DNA of 64,000 nucleotides from Roseivirga sp. (GTDB lineage Bacteria > Bacteroidota > Bacteroidia > Cytophagales > Cyclobacteriaceae): contig JAGYIY010000002.1 of NCBI GenBank assembly GCA_018402485.1, forward strand, positions 1 to 64,000, written 5' to 3'. The position numbers were made by a program, and so were the translations under genes. Below, in pieces: positions 3,622 to 15,736 of this stretch. How positions within the stretch are numbered: the first letter of the stretch is position 1; every line of letters starts with the position of its first letter. Below the pieces are notes generated by a model. It was not told the origin of the DNA. It did not search any database and saw nothing but the letters and a program-made list of their open reading frames with translations.

Positions 3622-3650
3622 AAATATATAATCAGAAGGAAAAATAATCA

Positions 3651-3792
3651 CCGTCATTCAGAAGGAGTTTGTAGGACGACTGAAGAATCTCCTTGTTGGA
3701 AAAGGGTGTATTACGAGGTTTCAATTGCTCCACGGAACTGGGAGATTCTTCGCTTCATACCGATTGCATCGGTATTGCGCTCTGAATGACGG
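3651..3792. repeat. Palindromic intergenic repeat, copy B with 12-bp terminal inverted repeats
   Basis: A 142-bp unit bounded by CCGTCATTCAGA and its perfect inverse TCTGAATGACGG. It shares its central 90 bp with copies A and C, but its right end carries a different hairpin (ACCGATTGCATCGGT). There is no ORF with coding character. The structure resembles a non-autonomous MITE- or REP-like element. Confidence 0.85.
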
Positions 3793-3832
3793 CCTTGAAC
3801 TGGGGGGGGGTGATAGTTATCGGGATGACGGT

Positions 3833-3906
3833 AGCTACGTCCTCCCCCTAACCCCCTCCAGAGGGGGACAAGGTCGCTTAGGGGGTTTGATGTAGGCGAG
3901 GGAATG
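3833..3906 (+). repeat. C/G-run intergenic repeat, copy 1
   Basis: This 74-bp stretch is nearly identical to 4201-4274. It contains CCCCCTCCAGAGGGGG, an imperfect palindrome, and a common 3' part (GATGTAGGCGAGGGAATG). A partial inverted copy lies at 182-213. Confidence 0.85.
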
Positions 3907-3932
3907 TTATGTGTACCGAAACTAATACCACA

Positions 3933-4051
3933 CCGTCATTCAGAAGGAGTCCGCAGGACGACTGAAGAATCCCCCCGTCGAAAAAGGGTGTATTACGAGG
4001 TTTCAATTGCTCCACGGAACTCAGGGATCCTGAAACAAGTTCAGGATGACG
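3933..4051. repeat. Palindromic intergenic repeat, copy C
   Basis: It starts CCGTCATTCAGAAGGAG as copy B does, and ends with the ATCCTGAA-ACAAG-TTCAGGAT hairpin and GACG as copy A does. The ends are imperfect inverted repeats (CCGTCATTCAG against TTCAGGATGACG). A short ORF across this unit is an artefact of the repeat. Confidence 0.85.
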
Positions 4052-4060
4052 TTACCCACA

Positions 4061-4119
4061 CCGTCATCCTGAAAAGCATTGCGACCGATAGGAGCAATGC
4101 GCGGTTCAGGATCTTTTTG
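4061..4119. repeat. Palindromic intergenic repeat, short variant D
   Basis: A 59-bp unit running CCGTCATCCTGAA ... GCATTGC ... GCAATGC ... TTCAGGAT: a long imperfect stem with an inner 7-bp stem. It uses the same outer ends as copies B and C around a different core, which points to modular assembly. Confidence 0.75.
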
Positions 4120-4170
4120 TAATGGAAAACGATCGTCCTTCTGGAGTGTACGTGTGGTGCTAGTTTCTAA

Positions 4171-4199
4171 GGGATCCTGAAACAAGTTCAGGATGACGG
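4171..4199. repeat. Palindromic repeat hairpin, end fragment E
   Basis: This is only the right-hand hairpin of the family (GGGATCCTGAAACAAG then TTCAGGATGACGG). It abuts the C/G-run repeat at 4201, just as the end of copy B lies close upstream of the C/G-run repeat at 3833. Confidence 0.8.
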
Positions 4200-4200
4200 T

Positions 4201-4274
4201 GGCTACGTCCTCCCCCTAACCCCCTCCAGAGGGGGACAAGGTCGCTTAGGGGGGGTGATGTAGGCGAGGGAATG
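4201..4274 (+). repeat. C/G-run intergenic repeat, copy 2
   Basis: Second near-identical copy of the 74-bp element at 3833-3906; the two differ by a few bases around the GGGGG(T/G) junction. Both copies sit immediately 3' of a GGATGACGGT(G)GCTACG-type junction, so the two repeat families travel or expand together. Confidence 0.85.
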
Positions 4275-4321
4275 ATATTACACGCATTAATTAGAAATTA
4301 GAAGTCAGAGAGTATACTCAA

Positions 4322-4416
4322 CCCAATACCCCAATCACCCAACAACCCAACAACCCAATCACCCCAATCACCCAATAACCCAACACCCCAATCACCCAAC
4401 ACCCCAACACCCCAAC
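4322..4416. repeat. C-rich 8-bp tandem array (CCCAAYNN)x12
   Basis: About twelve consecutive units of CCCAATCA, CCCAACAC, CCCAACAA and similar, nearly all 8 bp with one 9-bp unit. The array stops exactly at the stop codon of the minus-strand gene ending at 4417. On the minus strand it reads as GGG or GGGG runs spaced by 4-5 bases, which can form G-quadruplexes in the 3' UTR of that gene. Unit phase and low divergence suggest slippage variability. Confidence 0.9.
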
Positions 4417-5376
4417 TCAAAACCACCCTGTGGTGTCTAGGTATTTCTCCAAATGATTTTCTAGCTCATCTGAGATGGTTGGGAAGAAATCTAGTCCTGT
4501 TCTGCGCTCTATCTCATCAATCGAAATGGCATAATTAGAGAGGGGTAGATTGTTTTCGCCATTGGGTAAAACAAAACCGATGGCCTTTATCTCTGGCCTT
4601 TGTATGTCGAGAACGATGGTATAAATGGCATTAGGAATGGCAACACGGGCTTTATCAGTTCTTTTGGCTTTTGTATCAAAAATAGGACCTCTTACAACAT
4701 ACACCTGTCCATTTTGACTTGCCCATCTTTTAATCTGATCATTCAAAGCTGACCAGGCACCCTTTTCAAAGTTGCTTGATACAGGGCTGAACAAACTCGT
4801 GTAATTCAATTGACCTAATGCGAATTCACTGTAAGCAAAATGATCGGCAGAGGCTAAGGGTAGGGCTTTTAAATCAGCATTGCGGAAGTCGGATGGTGCT
4901 GTAGCCCCTGTTTTTACACGAGGGTCTTTCTTCAAGTTAAACCGATGCTTTGTCAAAGGCAATTGCAAACTGTCGCTATTAACGGAATAAGCTACCCATA
5001 GCGCTTGTTTACGATCCGCATCATAGCGCAGTGTATAATAGGGGCGTTCGATCACCTGTTGGTCGACAGCATAAGCCGGCCACATAAAATCAAAGGCTTT
5101 GGTGAAATAGAGATCAAATCCTCGATCATCGAACGCAGGAGTAGGGGTTTCATTAGGGGTGTCTTGCGCCGGTGAGCCTGCCTTATCCTTGTTGAAAAAA
5201 TCCATTTCAAAATCTAAACCCTCAGGAATGATACGCCCTTCATAAATCGATAAACCCACATAGCCTAGTATCACCAATAAGAAAAGACCCATGGTTACCT
5301 TGGCTAAATTCAGTTTTCTTTTCCCTGTCACTCCTAGGTGTTTACCGCCCGCACGTCTCCTCATTTTTTTTGCCAT
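4417..5376 (-). CDS. Membrane-anchored DNA/RNA non-specific endonuclease-like protein, active site apparently lost
   Basis: A 319-residue protein with a basic cytoplasmic N-terminus, one transmembrane helix at about 25-45, and an extracytoplasmic domain at about 85-319. The domain has the general pattern of the NUC1/EndoG family (PF01223): LGQLNYTSLFSPVSSNFE, then W208, RWA and GQVYVVRGPIFD. In active members a DRGH motif carries the catalytic His, and an Asn four residues before the conserved Trp binds metal. Here the matching positions read D168-L-K-A171 and E204, so both catalytic residues seem absent. I infer a binding or structural role instead of nuclease activity. ATG 5376 is used; ATG 5364 is also possible. 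The C-rich array starts directly after the stop codon. Confidence 0.75.
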   Translation of the reverse strand: MAKKMRRRAGGKHLGVTGKRKLNLAKVTMGLFLLVILGYVGLSIYEGRIIPEGLDFEMDFFNKDKAGSPAQDTPNETPTPAFDDRGFDLYFTKAFDFMWPAYAVDQQVIERPYYTLRYDADRKQALWVAYSVNSDSLQLPLTKHRFNLKKDPRVKTGATAPSDFRNADLKALPLASADHFAYSEFALGQLNYTSLFSPVSSNFEKGAWSALNDQIKRWASQNGQVYVVRGPIFDTKAKRTDKARVAIPNAIYTIVLDIQRPEIKAIGFVLPNGENNLPLSNYAISIDEIERRTGLDFFPTISDELENHLEKYLDTTGWF

Positions 5377-10944: not shown

Positions 10945-11850
10945 TTATACCATTTTATTTCGCTTAATTAAATAGGCTTTAAGTACTTGTTCAAAGCCCT
11001 GGTTAATGTCAACTGTGATCAAATCAATTTTTAGCTGGGCGCATTTTAAGTACAAAGATTGATAGTATGCGTCCATTTTTTTTCTGAATTCAGCTTTAAT
11101 GTTTGAAGGGTTCAATTTCAGTTTTTCATTGGTCTCAGCATCAATGAATTCATAGGGGCGGTCTTCGAACTCAAAATCTAACTCAGTACGATGGTCTGTG
11201 ACATGAAACAATAAGATCTCATGCTTTTGGTGTTTTAGGTGTTGTAGTGCGGCAATCAATTCTTTTTCATTTTCTTCATTGTCGAACATATCACTAAAAA
11301 GAATGACCAGCGAACGCCTGTGTACTTTTTGAGCCAACTCATGTAGAATGCCAGCAACACGGGTTTTCTTTCTATGCTCAGGTTTTTTGAGTAATTCATT
11401 GAAATGCACCATCAGCTGATGCATGTGCGATGCCGATGATTTAACCTGCGTTTCGATTTCCAATCGGTCAGAAAAGGTATGCAAACCCACAGCATCGCGC
11501 TGTTTGTGAAATAAATAGGAGAGAGCAGCAGCTGCCAAAACACTGAAACGCATTTTTCCGTAATTTTCTTTGGGATAAAACATGGACGAGCTTTGATCGA
11601 GTACCAGCTGACAGCGAAGATTGGTTTCTTCTTCGTAGCGTTTGGTATAGAGACGGTCCGTTTTCGCAAAAATTTTCCAATCGATATGGCGCGTACTCTC
11701 TCCATTATTGTACAAACGATGTTCGGCAAATTCTACTGAAAAACCATGATAGGGCGATTTATGTAAGCCTGTAATGAAACCTTCCACCATTTGCTTGGCC
11801 AATAACTCTAGGCTGCCAATCGCTTGAACATTGTTCAGGGTTACTTCCAT
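10945..11850 (-). CDS. DUF58 domain protein (vWA-like fold)
   Basis: A 301-residue protein with the DUF58 core GESTRHIDWKIFAKTDRLYT and a metal-ion-dependent-adhesion-like site (LVLDQSSSMF, DxSxS). DUF58 proteins usually sit with a MoxR AAA+ ATPase and BatA/BatB proteins and are thought to act as assembly or chaperone factors. No MoxR or Bat gene is seen in this window, so it stands alone. A strong promoter (TTTG, 18 bp, TAAGTTTG) lies 27 bp upstream. Confidence 0.9.
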   Translation of the reverse strand: MEVTLNNVQAIGSLELLAKQMVEGFITGLHKSPYHGFSVEFAEHRLYNNGESTRHIDWKIFAKTDRLYTKRYEEETNLRCQLVLDQSSSMFYPKENYGKMRFSVLAAAALSYLFHKQRDAVGLHTFSDRLEIETQVKSSASHMHQLMVHFNELLKKPEHRKKTRVAGILHELAQKVHRRSLVILFSDMFDNEENEKELIAALQHLKHQKHEILLFHVTDHRTELDFEFEDRPYEFIDAETNEKLKLNPSNIKAEFRKKMDAYYQSLYLKCAQLKIDLITVDINQGFEQVLKAYLIKRNKMV

Positions 11851-12022: not shown

Positions 12023-12355
12023 GTGGAAGACAAGAACGAGATATTTTCGCAGAAGGTAAGGGCAGGAAAAAGAACCTATTTTTTTGACGTAAAGGCCACT
12101 CGGTCACAAGATTATTACCTCACCATAACCGAAAGCAAACGTAAGTTTAAGGATGATGGAGTAGCTTATGAAAAGCATAAAATTTTTCTTTACAAAGAAG
12201 ACTTTCACAAATTTCTCGAAGCCTTAAATGGTGCTGTCGCACATGTGAAAGACGAACTCCTGCCAGATGTTGATTTCGAGCAGTTTGAAAGGGACGATTA
12301 TTCTGAATCTACAGACCATAATGTGGATGCTGATACAGAACTAAAGTGGGATTAA
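12023..12355 (+). CDS. DUF3276 family protein (PUR-alpha-like nucleic-acid-binding)
   Basis: A 110-residue protein with a GTG start and the family pattern EIFSQKVRAGKRTYFFDVK and YYLTITESKRKF, followed by an acidic tail. DUF3276 (PF11680) is related to the PUR repeat fold that binds single-stranded DNA or RNA, and is almost confined to Bacteroidota and Spirochaetes. The start was set by the conserved N-terminal EIFS segment; no ATG is available upstream. It is probably monocistronic, just before ychF. Confidence 0.9.
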   Translation: MEDKNEIFSQKVRAGKRTYFFDVKATRSQDYYLTITESKRKFKDDGVAYEKHKIFLYKEDFHKFLEALNGAVAHVKDELLPDVDFEQFERDDYSESTDHNVDADTELKWD

Positions 12356-12450: not shown

Positions 12451-13548
12451 ATGGGCTTAAAATGTGGTATCGTGGGGCTTCCTAATGTGGGGAAATCTAC
12501 TCTTTTCAATGCGCTTTCTAGCGCTAAGGCAGAAGCTGCTAATTTTCCGTTTTGTACCATTGAACCCAATGTGGGAGTAGTGAGCGTGCCGGATGTTCGC
12601 TTAAAAGTGTTGGCTGATTTGGTTCATCCAGAAAAAGTATTGCCCACCGTAATTGAGTTTGTCGATATTGCAGGCCTTGTCAAAGGGGCAAGTAAAGGAG
12701 AAGGCCTTGGAAATAAATTCTTAGCCAACATACGCGAGGTAGATGCCATCATTCACGTAGTTAGATGTTTCAAAGATGATAATGTAGTGCATGTTGCGGG
12801 TCAGGTAGACCCGGTTTTTGACAAAGAAATCATCGATACTGAGCTTCAATTGAAAGACCTTGAGTCGATTGATAAGAGAATACAGCGTCTATTGAAAATA
12901 GCAAAATCTGGTGATGCTGTCGCTAAAAAAGAATTAGCTGTTTTAGAAAAATTCCAAAAATCTCTAGAGAGTGGCGCGAATGCACGGGCGCTAGAAACAA
13001 CAGAAGAAGAAGACCTATTGATTCGAGAGCTATCCTTGTTGACTCGAAAGCCTGTGATTTATGTAGCCAATGTTGAAGAGGCTTCCATTCATGTGGGTAA
13101 TGAATATGTAGCCGCCTTAAAAGAAGCGATTCAACAAGAAGGAGCAGAACTGATCATGATCTCCGCTTCCATTGAGTCTCAAATTGCTGAATTGGAAGAT
13201 GCAGATGAAAAAGCCATGTTTCTGGAGGAGTATGGCTTAAAGGAATCTGGCTTGAATAAATTGATTCGTACGTCTTACGATGTGTTGAACTTAATCACCT
13301 ATTTTACCGCTGGCAAGCAAGAGGTAAGGGCTTGGACCATTCAAAAAGGATGGAAAGCGCCGAAAGCAGCTGGGGTTATTCACACCGATTTTGAGAAAGG
13401 CTTTATTCGAGCCGAGGTCATTAAAATTGATGACTACCAACAATTGAAAACAGAGGTGGCTGTAAAGGAAGCTGGTAAAATGTCGGTAGAAGGAAAGGAA
13501 TATGTGGTGAAAGATGGAGATGTGATGCATTTTCGCTTTAATGTTTAG
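12451..13548 (+). CDS. ychF: Redox-regulated ATPase YchF (Obg-like ATPase)
   Basis: A 365-residue P-loop protein that binds ribosomes and prefers ATP to GTP. The G1 motif is [14 protein letters not shown], followed by [14 protein letters not shown], the G3 region [16 protein letters not shown], and a C-terminal TGS domain ([31 protein letters not shown]). Length is that expected for YchF. The upstream gene DUF3276 is codirectional but has a separate -7 box between. Confidence 0.98.
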
Positions 13549-13665: not shown

Positions 13666-14478
13666 GTGAGAGTACGAGTTATATTTAAATTAATGAACAA
13701 AGGGGAGAGTTTACCTTTCCACCACCAATACCTTTTGGCTCAATTTTTAAAAGGTGTACTTGTAAATGCCAATGAAGAGCGTTATCTCAACTACGACTTT
13801 TACAATTTCTCTGGATTGAAGGGGCAAACGCGTGTTTCTAGAGATGGATTACATTACCACTCCCATTTGGTTACTTTGGTACTTTCTGCCGAAGACAAAG
13901 GTTTTCTAGACTTTTTATTGGGGCAGATCTTTGCATTGGATACCATCAGTTTAGGTAACCTTCAGCTCAAGCCGCTCTTTACGGAAATTGAAAAACCCGT
14001 AGACCTCACCGAAGACACCAAGTTCATTTGTATTTCTCCGATTGTTCCGCTGAAAGCGAAATTCAATGATTCGGCAGCAAAACGGTTTATCCATCCGGAA
14101 ACTGATGAATTTTCAGATTTGATCTACGACTCTACCTTGCGGCGACTTGAAAAGACAGGACGTTACAAACCCGAAGATTTTGATGGATTCACAAAATTTC
14201 AAATCCTGCCAGATCATTCTTACATAGAACGATTGAAGGCCAACGATAAAAAGTTCGCCCGCATATACAGCCTTTTTGAATCAGATGTAAAGTACGACGT
14301 AAGGGGATATACCTTGCCGATCCAGTTACTTGCGGCCAAAGAATTACAGGAGTTTGTTTTTCATTGTGGTTTAGGCAATTATACCTACAAAGGCTTTGGT
14401 ATGTTAGACTTGGCCAATGCCGATCCTAAAGACCGTACCGAAAGATATACTTTCGATCGAGAGATGATCAACGCCTAG
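13666..14478 (+). CDS. cas6: Solitary Cas6-like CRISPR-associated endoribonuclease
   Basis: A 270-residue protein with a GTG start. The N-terminal segment FKLMNKGESLPFHHQYLLAQ resembles the first ferredoxin-like fold of Cas6, and the C-terminus holds the glycine-rich loop G235-L-G-N-Y-T-Y-K-G-F-G245 typical of the Cas6/RAMP family, which cleaves CRISPR repeat RNA. H19 and H20 are possible catalytic residues; this is not certain by eye. No CRISPR array and no other cas gene exist in the 64 kb. It sits between housekeeping genes (ychF upstream; the T9SS plug gene downstream, convergent with an 11-bp overlap), so it is either a stand-alone enzyme serving a remote array or a domesticated RNase. 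Confidence 0.8.
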   Translation: MRVRVIFKLMNKGESLPFHHQYLLAQFLKGVLVNANEERYLNYDFYNFSGLKGQTRVSRDGLHYHSHLVTLVLSAEDKGFLDFLLGQIFALDTISLGNLQLKPLFTEIEKPVDLTEDTKFICISPIVPLKAKFNDSAAKRFIHPETDEFSDLIYDSTLRRLEKTGRYKPEDFDGFTKFQILPDHSYIERLKANDKKFARIYSLFESDVKYDVRGYTLPIQLLAAKELQEFVFHCGLGNYTYKGFGMLDLANADPKDRTERYTFDREMINA

Positions 14479-15736
14479 CGTTAACATTCACGCGAAAATA
14501 ACCGACTAGCTCATCGCCTCTGCTACCCATCGCCTGGTAATACACAAATACCTCATACAGGTTCTCGGTATCAAAAAAGCTTTTTGAAACTAAGGTACCG
14601 TTCTTTTCAGCTTCAAACTTGTAGTTGTAAAGACCTTGCTTCATCAATATACTTGCCTCATAAATGCCTTTCTCTGTATTGTAGCTCATTTTATTGGCAT
14701 CAGTCTTTTCCCAATCGTTAAAGGCGCCAACCACAAACAGTTCTTCTTGATAAGGAGACGCCGCTTCCAGTTGAAATAGAACTTTTACATACTCAGCAGC
14801 CAAATCACCCAACTGACTTTCATTGTCTTTCACGTAGAATTGTCCGTTGATATCTAGTTGCTGAAGATAGGCCTCGCGAAAGGGGCGGTTTGGGTTTAAA
14901 GTAGCTAATACTTCACCATTACGATAAGTGGTAGAAACCACGTTTCTCCCTGTCATATTGATGCTGCTTAAATCAAAAAAACGGTATTCATTTCCACCTT
15001 CAAACTCATTGCCATCTCCAAGGTTTTGATACCGAATGCTTCGGTTGCTTTCATCGATAAACGTGGGTGACAAAAAGCGCTGTTGATCTGGCCTTTGGTT
15101 TTGTACAACCTTTACCCTGAATTGTTGCTGCGGATCATTCACCAATAATTGGCCATAATTCATCAATACTTCCACGCGCTGACGGCTCAAACGCATGGCT
15201 GTTTCTGAGGAGCGAAGCACAGAAGCGCCTACACCGACCTGCTCATCTACCACATAAAACCTACGACTAAGCACGATGTCTTTTTTGTCTTGGTTGCGAT
15301 AAACCACGGCCAAATAATTACCACTGTAATTGAAAGCAGGCAGCTTTACATCATAATGAACGTACTGTTGTTTGGCTTCTACAGAAAAGTCAAAGGTTGT
15401 AATTTCAAATGCATTGAACCTATTCAAAAACAAAGCAGAGCTTAGTTTAGAAGGTTGCCAGTCTGCATTACAATGAATAAAGTACACGTAATAATAATCA
15501 GCATCTTCGCGCAGGTCATCGAAAGAAAGGGTCAAACGGTTTGCAATTCCTGTTGTGGTTACGGGGGGGGCGATACGGCTATTGACAGAGTTGCCGGTAG
15601 GATACAGTTGTACAGTTCGAATGGTGGGTTCATATACTTTATTGACAGGATGAAGTATTTTATTTTGCCCATGTGCGAGTTGAGCTAGACTCAAGTAGAG
15701 TGGCAAGGCAACCAACAAAAGAAATAAATACTTCAT
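14468..15736 (-). CDS. Type IX secretion system plug protein (DUF5103)
   Basis: A 422-residue periplasmic protein with a signal peptide (MKYLFLLLVALPLYLSLAQL, then AHGQ). It matches the DUF5103 family: N-terminal IRTVQLYPTGN and LTLSFDDLREDADYYYVYFI, and a C-terminal immunoglobulin-like part with FVVGAFNDWEKTDANKMSYN. In Flavobacterium johnsoniae the DUF5103 protein plugs the periplasmic side of the SprA translocon of the type IX secretion system. Its presence implies that the organism has a T9SS, although no other T9SS component lies in this window. A possible minus-strand -7 box TATTTTCG lies just upstream (one mismatch). Confidence 0.88.
   Translation of the reverse strand: MKYLFLLLVALPLYLSLAQLAHGQNKILHPVNKVYEPTIRTVQLYPTGNSVNSRIAPPVTTTGIANRLTLSFDDLREDADYYYVYFIHCNADWQPSKLSSALFLNRFNAFEITTFDFSVEAKQQYVHYDVKLPAFNYSGNYLAVVYRNQDKKDIVLSRRFYVVDEQVGVGASVLRSSETAMRLSRQRVEVLMNYGQLLVNDPQQQFRVKVVQNQRPDQQRFLSPTFIDESNRSIRYQNLGDGNEFEGGNEYRFFDLSSINMTGRNVVSTTYRNGEVLATLNPNRPFREAYLQQLDINGQFYVKDNESQLGDLAAEYVKVLFQLEAASPYQEELFVVGAFNDWEKTDANKMSYNTEKGIYEASILMKQGLYNYKFEAEKNGTLVSKSFFDTENLYEVFVYYQAMGSRGDELVGYFRVNVNARR

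Follow-up and report, generated by a model that had tools for sequence, protein, structure and literature searches.

A solo Cas6-family gene conserved in Cytophagales appears independent of CRISPR and is predicted to encode an RNA-binding or RNA-cutting protein

Cas6 is the guide-RNA maturation enzyme of CRISPR. In the window, that is the whole stretch of 64,000 nucleotides of Roseivirga sp. DNA analyzed here, an ORF that the original prediction had read as a solitary Cas6 lies between ychF and the T9SS plug gene, with which it converges and shares 11 bp (Table 1); the neighbors and the overlap are all as claimed. The ORF matches the Pfam family Cas6_C (PF01881) with an E-value of 3.1e-17 and a score of 64 bits for a cut-off of 23, and PADLOC Cas6b with an E-value of 1.1e-23 over residues 1–249, whereas its NCBIfam match to TIGR01877, at 53.4 bits, stays slightly below the cut-off of 58.65; curated profiles are thus matched above cut-off in two of the three libraries. 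A profile search of the PDB returned six matches to Cas6 or Cas6-like chains, the top one being 3ufc (PfuCas6nc, E=2.7e-15). The AlphaFold model, obtained from a seven-row alignment, has a mean pLDDT of 52.8 and is usable only to about residue 110, and Foldseek returned seven matches with E≤0.001 to Cas6 or Cas6-like chains, with TM-scores of 0.37–0.48 for a model reliable over that part. As for the two RAMP domains of the Cas6 family, the N-terminal part is fairly modeled and matches Cas6, and the remainder, with a pLDDT below 50, is covered by the Cas6_C profile. Judged by curated profiles, by the PDB profile search and, over the modeled part, by its fold, ORF 13666–14478 is a genuine Cas6-family protein, far beyond chance, as first proposed.

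The original prediction relied on two segments of the protein, with different outcomes. The C-terminal loop GLGNYTYKGFG, with a lysine inside, fits the Cas6 loop consensus GhGxxxxxGhG (as quoted in PMC3936711) and does point to Cas6; a looser version of the glycine-loop pattern is found in 111 of 115 orthologs. The N-terminal SLPFHHQYL is a poor identifier, PFHHQ being the very place where the solo form departs from the Cas6 proteins encoded in CRISPR loci of the order, most of which have NYQ. A KK.(A/S)R segment is typical of the solo family, the pattern 'KK..R' being loose enough to match other places in the protein. Start codons of the solo gene, in the 112 rows read from residue 1, are GTG (54), TTG (40) and ATG (17), and this prevalence of non-ATG starts (94/112) may hint at low expression.

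Table 1. Positions in the window of the solo Cas6-family gene, its conserved segments and the surrounding gene block.
Feature	Coordinates	Strand	Remarks
Solo Cas6-family gene	13666..14478	+	270 aa, GTG start; Cas6_C domain at residues 114-249
SLPFHHQYL codons, residues 15-23	13708..13734	+	PFHHQ opens helix 1; H20 in 114/115 distinct orthologs
FSGLKGQT codons, residues 48-55	13807..13830	+	K52 in 77/77 aligned loci
Glycine-rich loop GLGNYTYKGFG codons, residues 235-245	14368..14400	+	G235-L-G237-NYTYK-G243-F-G245
ychF, conserved upstream neighbor	12451..13548	+	YchF PF06071, E=9.9e-41
T9SS plug gene, conserved convergent neighbor	14468..15736	-	NF052315, E=5.6e-102; 11-bp overlap
DUF3276 gene, wider conserved block	12023..12355	+	Profile match and family loci
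DUF58/VWA gene, wider conserved block	10945..11850	-	Profile match and family loci

Orthologs are present in 102 of the 118 genomes of the family to which the Roseivirga genome belongs, that genome included, and those outside it are 43–68% identical over nearly the full length. At the level of the order, 94 of 146 genomes, 13 of them from the same family, carry the gene by profile (E≤3.5e-65), and four further genomes hold only divergent Cas6. In a draw of 197 genomes from the class, nine from the families f41, f57 and f78 gave matches of 170–238 bits; in a draw of 198 genomes from the phylum, none outside the order reached the solo-family score, the best match being 80 bits. Named relatives include four genomes of Fulvivirga, a genus of Cytophagales, and a Flammeovirgaceae MAG, all at 55–57% identity, and an unplaced MAG at 47%. 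Phage records gave no match to the solo Cas6, and none was confirmed on viral contigs in a pattern-led scan. A Bernardetia copy, annotated as Cas6, adjoins metabolic genes on a 602-kb plasmid record (L202, NZ_CP147018.1:316852-341628); this secondary replicon also carries rimM and purQ, and may for that reason be a chromid.

The overlap with the plug gene had suggested a long-settled location, and the case proved stronger than guessed, since the order ychF-cas6-plug recurs throughout the family. When the ychF-cas6-DUF5103 synteny was followed in relatives, with a sample of 70 of the 102 family carriers, ychF was directly upstream (among conserved genes) in 69 loci and plug present in 61, the nine loci without plug having at most 1.5 kb of downstream sequence. 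Outside the family, ychF adjoins the gene in 12 of the 17 best-scoring loci, drawn from 81 order carriers, in two of seven weaker order loci (L140–L146) and in four of nine class loci. The ychF-cas6-plug order is also found in the order families f5, f7, f14 and f15, one f7 locus (L145) retaining the entire DUF58-DUF3276-ychF-cas6-plug-ABCF block with a single added gene, and the ychF-cas6 pair extends beyond the order in f41 and f57. Elsewhere the solo gene has been relocated yet retained. Where synteny breaks, the ten neighbors that were scanned vary (for example transglycosylase, sugar transferase, Exo_endo_phos, DUF2461 and DXP reductoisomerase), so that a constant partner beyond ychF and plug was not seen.

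In a Cas6 tree built with 51 of the 115 distinct solo rows, chosen so as to be well spread, together with 36 of the 38 other Cas6 (labeled 'crispr' in the sense of 'not solo', L185 and L193 being left out for their short frames), the solo rows form one clade with support 100/98, apart from the other Cas6, and rows of the same family tend to cluster. The group nearest to this clade, with a weak support of 94/69, is a small set of Bacteroidia Cas6 (L158 from G154:C2, L122 and L126); L158 has PYDHQ at its N-terminus and lies about 7.5 kb from an array. Distances between solo Cas6 proteins correlate with those between YchF proteins (r=0.605 over 94 loci, a value reached by 0 of 999 permutations). 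The median dN/dS, from our own NG86 script and the 78 of 427 close pairs kept with dS <2, is 0.045 (range 0.012–0.078). Among the 12 non-carrier loci of the family with a full ychF, six have an empty site at which ychF meets plug directly, and the remaining six show no plug within the stretch. Four of the 16 gene-negative family genomes (G008, G046, G056 and G062) show no full ychF, and the solo gene may be missing from them through a gap in the assembly. In the YchF tree, whose bootstrap did not converge and in which the broken frame of L010 gives an implausible branch, the non-carriers need seven changes, at least three of them forced. Repeated losses imply that the gene is dispensable; together with synteny, the single clade, distances that track YchF and the low dN/dS, they describe an old, mainly vertically transmitted gene that is selected but dispensable. 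At the level of genome comparison, these data demonstrate a wide distribution through mainly vertical descent, in many cases at a single fixed locus, under strong purifying selection. That the gene could be a functionless remnant of a decayed CRISPR locus would agree with its Cas6 ancestry and the lack of cas genes nearby, but a dN/dS of about 0.045, residues invariant in 77 loci and a place conserved in 69 of 70 family loci leave this reading a negligible probability.

The Roseivirga genome (2.57 Mb in 17 contigs, 84.6% complete) has the solo gene as its sole PF01881 match, and the Pfam search of this 84.6% complete assembly gave no match to Cas1, type I Cas7 or RAMP proteins; in the window, no CRISPR array was detected by a repeat-spacing script, and no Rfam family at gathering score. 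As far as these searches reach, the gene is solitary, as had been stated. The same script does detect arrays elsewhere: they turned up in 9 of the 20 stretches around second or other Cas6 genes (L147–L166) and in none of the 60 around solo genes, which amount to 745,824 bases. The array scan covered the window and such stretches, and arrays at a greater distance from the gene may have escaped it. Within the family, Cas1 was without match in 60 of the 102 carriers, and 59 of them lacked Cas1, Cas7, RAMPs and a second Cas6 altogether; as judged from these searches, most carriers have no detectable cas genes. A second Cas6, 23–29% identical to the solo protein, was found in 10 of the 102 carriers by a single-protein search, which missed a whole second class of Cas6.

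These counts bear on the proposal that the solo protein processes the repeats of a distant array, in its general form a trans-acting crRNA maturation enzyme that would serve as a chromosomal backup for the arrays of come-and-go CRISPR systems and be kept because immunity is often regained. In theory, a loosely associated Cas6 could make crRNAs for different clients (PMC3652601), and across the order Cas1 is found more often in carriers (57 of 94) than in non-carriers (14 of 52; Fisher p=1.2e-4, uncorrected for kinship, the non-carriers including six genomes of 1.1–1.6 Mb without a Cas1 match). For class-1-like Cas1 (E≤1e-50), the order counts are 31/94 and 9/52 (p=0.053, again uncorrected for kinship). 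In the family, 42 of 102 carriers have a Cas1, as do 4 of 16 non-carriers (p=0.28), and class-1-like Cas1 is present in 28 of 102 carriers, compared with none of the 12 informative non-carriers (p=0.036) or 1 of all 16 (p=0.11). Many Cas1 matches are shorter, with E-values around 1e-28, and are presumably of type II, which would not need Cas6. Nine of the 28 carriers with class-1-like Cas1 already had a second Cas6, and 20 Cas1 loci were taken from the other 19, a choice that leaned towards trans-processing because these carriers had shown no second Cas6 in the initial search. Despite this selection, 17 of the 20 class 1 loci have a Cas6 of their own, either ordinary (six, one of which is truncated where the stretch ends) or of the second class (eleven; L211–L219, L221 and L222). 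The second-class proteins, of 222–268 aa, correspond to PADLOC PDLC01381/02104 and come from loci among which are types I-B, III-A and III-D; PADLOC was run on six of the eleven and names Cas6 for these six. The three loci without a visible Cas6 lie on a 3-kb contig, in a stretch cut at 16 kb and on a 13-kb contig. The apparent lack of Cas6 in several class 1 loci, as seen with an HMM made from ordinary Cas6, was discarded when PADLOC and a second HMM revealed this other class. The order-level association with Cas1 lends weak support to trans-processing, insufficient to overturn the rest: a genome in which four Pfam families return no other cas gene, the 59 carriers without any of the cas genes searched for, the 17 class 1 loci already equipped, and a solo form without the LHxxG motif that most other Cas6 keep. 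We regard crRNA maturation in trans as improbable, and the distant-array proposal as not borne out.

In the PDB profile alignment, onto which the catalytic residues of PfuCas6 were placed by reading and with what we take to be its residue numbering, the column of Tyr31 holds K29, His46 falls in an insertion absent from the solo profile and the column of Lys52 is variable. These three residues make up the catalytic triad of PfuCas6 (PMC3652601). The LHxxG motif, of the His46 type, is found in none of the 115 solo rows, compared with 31 of 36 other Cas6 (a count in which the match of L122 looks spurious and FLHGTAY of L159 was missed); in the phylum draw, which returned 13 loci, all 11 readable frames have it. 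The alignments show that the triad of PfuCas6 has been lost in the solo family and that another set of near-invariant residues is present. H20 stands at the start of a helix spanning residues 20–35 in the predicted structure, H19 is near-invariant as well, with HHQ in 106 of 115 orthologs (the nine other rows were checked by eye), and K52 is present in all 77 aligned loci, among which L001 and L008 are one and the same gene. As far as sequence can tell, the protein is a Cas6 by descent, yet not an enzyme of the PfuCas6 type.

Two outcomes are compatible with such a change. The protein could be a non-catalytic, Cas6nc-like binder of structured RNA, for example an sRNA/mRNA chaperone, a reading nested within the one that we favor and different only as to cutting. 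The replacement of Tyr31 by K29, the missing His46 segment and the variable position at Lys52 speak for it, as does the top PDB profile match 3ufc, called the non-catalytic PfuCas6nc in PMC3652601. Against it stand the near-invariance of H20 and of several basic residues and the case of SsoCas6, which cleaves although it has no active-site His (PMC3652601), so that the loss of the triad does not prove inactivity. We give the non-cutting binder somewhat less than an even chance and lean slightly towards a site-specific ribonuclease of slow turnover, whose putative catalytic His would be H20, because it is in helix 1 that Cas6e and Cas6f have their catalytic His (PMC3652601). PfuCas6 also carries a His at the column of H20, outside its triad, and H20 need not for that reason be catalytic.

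As to the RNA that such a protein would recognize, the palindromic intergenic repeats of the Roseivirga genome had been put forward, with the idea that the protein cuts transcripts at these REP-like hairpins (positions 3651–4274). Their core TTCAGGATGACG has 100 exact copies in this genome against none for the reversed control pattern. Yet copy numbers do not follow the gene: four copies are found in G057, a carrier of the same genus, and 28 and 9 in G103 and G032, both non-carriers, and the repeat is specific to a lineage whereas the gene is spread through the order. REP-like hairpins are thus very unlikely to be the general substrate. The palindromes themselves are located at 3649–4278 of the window and at G000:C1:425622-448250 (L200 and L201), with 27 forward and 12 reverse copies of the core within about 23 kb, interspersed with polysaccharide-export, AbiEii, Fic, HipA and AAA_14/DUF4143 genes; beside the palindromes, positions 4312–4431 of the window hold tandem ACCCAAC-like repeats spaced 8 bp apart. 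Two other candidates were rejected, and the candidates considered here yielded no RNA target. The 5' leader of the gene has no conserved structure, with no covarying pair, and hence no covarying helix, in 13 ychF-cas6 leaders. Flavo-1 RNA (RF01705) occurs in only 26 of the 118 family genomes (10 above cut-off), is absent here and is present in the non-carriers G035 and G061. It can be multi-copy, with 31, 34 and 11 matches at E≤0.001 in G048, G069 and G033.

Taken together, our results reveal a genuine Cas6 lineage that spans the order and seems to be independent of CRISPR, and we consider it probable that the solo gene encodes a domesticated Cas6 of Cytophagales, predicted to bind or cut RNA. 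According to this model, this Cas6 would have parted from CRISPR immunity long ago and settled in the chromosome of Cytophagales, where it is passed on by inheritance; three other families of the class have relatives of it. Its RAMP fold and glycine-rich loop would hold one or a few structured RNAs encoded by the chromosome. A bolder version, which we advance tentatively and judge a little more likely to be wrong than right, would make this the first core Cas6 that works independently of CRISPR. In this version, the protein would have been tamed by the time Cytophagales arose, or close to it, and would serve generally in RNA processing or as an RNA chaperone, with an active site and a cellular RNA substrate of its own. 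It might perhaps fill a gap of the Hfq type, Bacteroidota not being known to possess global RNA chaperones such as Hfq. In one public record, such a gene is already annotated as Cas6. Among the matches listed in a search of open-licence PMC papers, we found no report of a core CRISPR-free Cas6 in these bacteria, and the excerpts of PMC3652601, PMC3727216, PMC3936711, PMC8730458, PMC8866350 and PMC4158269 contain none. If the preferred reading is true, a cas gene can become an RNA gene of the cell itself, with an everyday role in the handling of cellular RNA. It would offer a handle on the RNA biology of Bacteroidota through one gene, natural deletions and culturable genera such as Fulvivirga, and it carries a warning for annotation, since a gene annotated as Cas6 in Cytophagales does not indicate CRISPR.

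The other Cas6 of the order (L147–L166) belong to the same family, are mostly of about 260 aa and have a glycine-rich C-terminal end. They have arrays in 9 of 20 stretches and most keep NYQ..IY and FLHxxGY, whereas the solo form has PFHHQ, lacks the His46 motif and keeps a conserved place, with no array at any of 60 loci. The second Cas6 class (PDLC01381/02104), which acts as the Cas6 of 11 of 20 Cas1 loci in genomes that also have the solo gene, is a separate sequence class. Sequence and profile searches of the PDB give their best matches to the archaeal PfuCas6nc (3ufc) and PH0350 (3qjj, 3qjp), the latter being, we assume, non-catalytic. 3ufc is called non-catalytic in PMC3652601, and the solo protein is likened to it by sequence only. 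Exapted CRISPR derivatives, such as STAND-linked type I-E modules, are likewise Cas proteins recruited to other tasks (PMC8730458), but they are multi-gene modules, and no lone core Cas6 is named in the excerpt of that review. The 'solo Cas6' of PMC8866350 is, from the part of that paper at hand, an ordinary pre-crRNA enzyme. With PfuCas6 (3i4h, 3pkm), finally, the solo form shares the Cas6 fold and the P[FY]xHQ that opens helix 1, but it does not keep the triad of Tyr31, His46 and Lys52.
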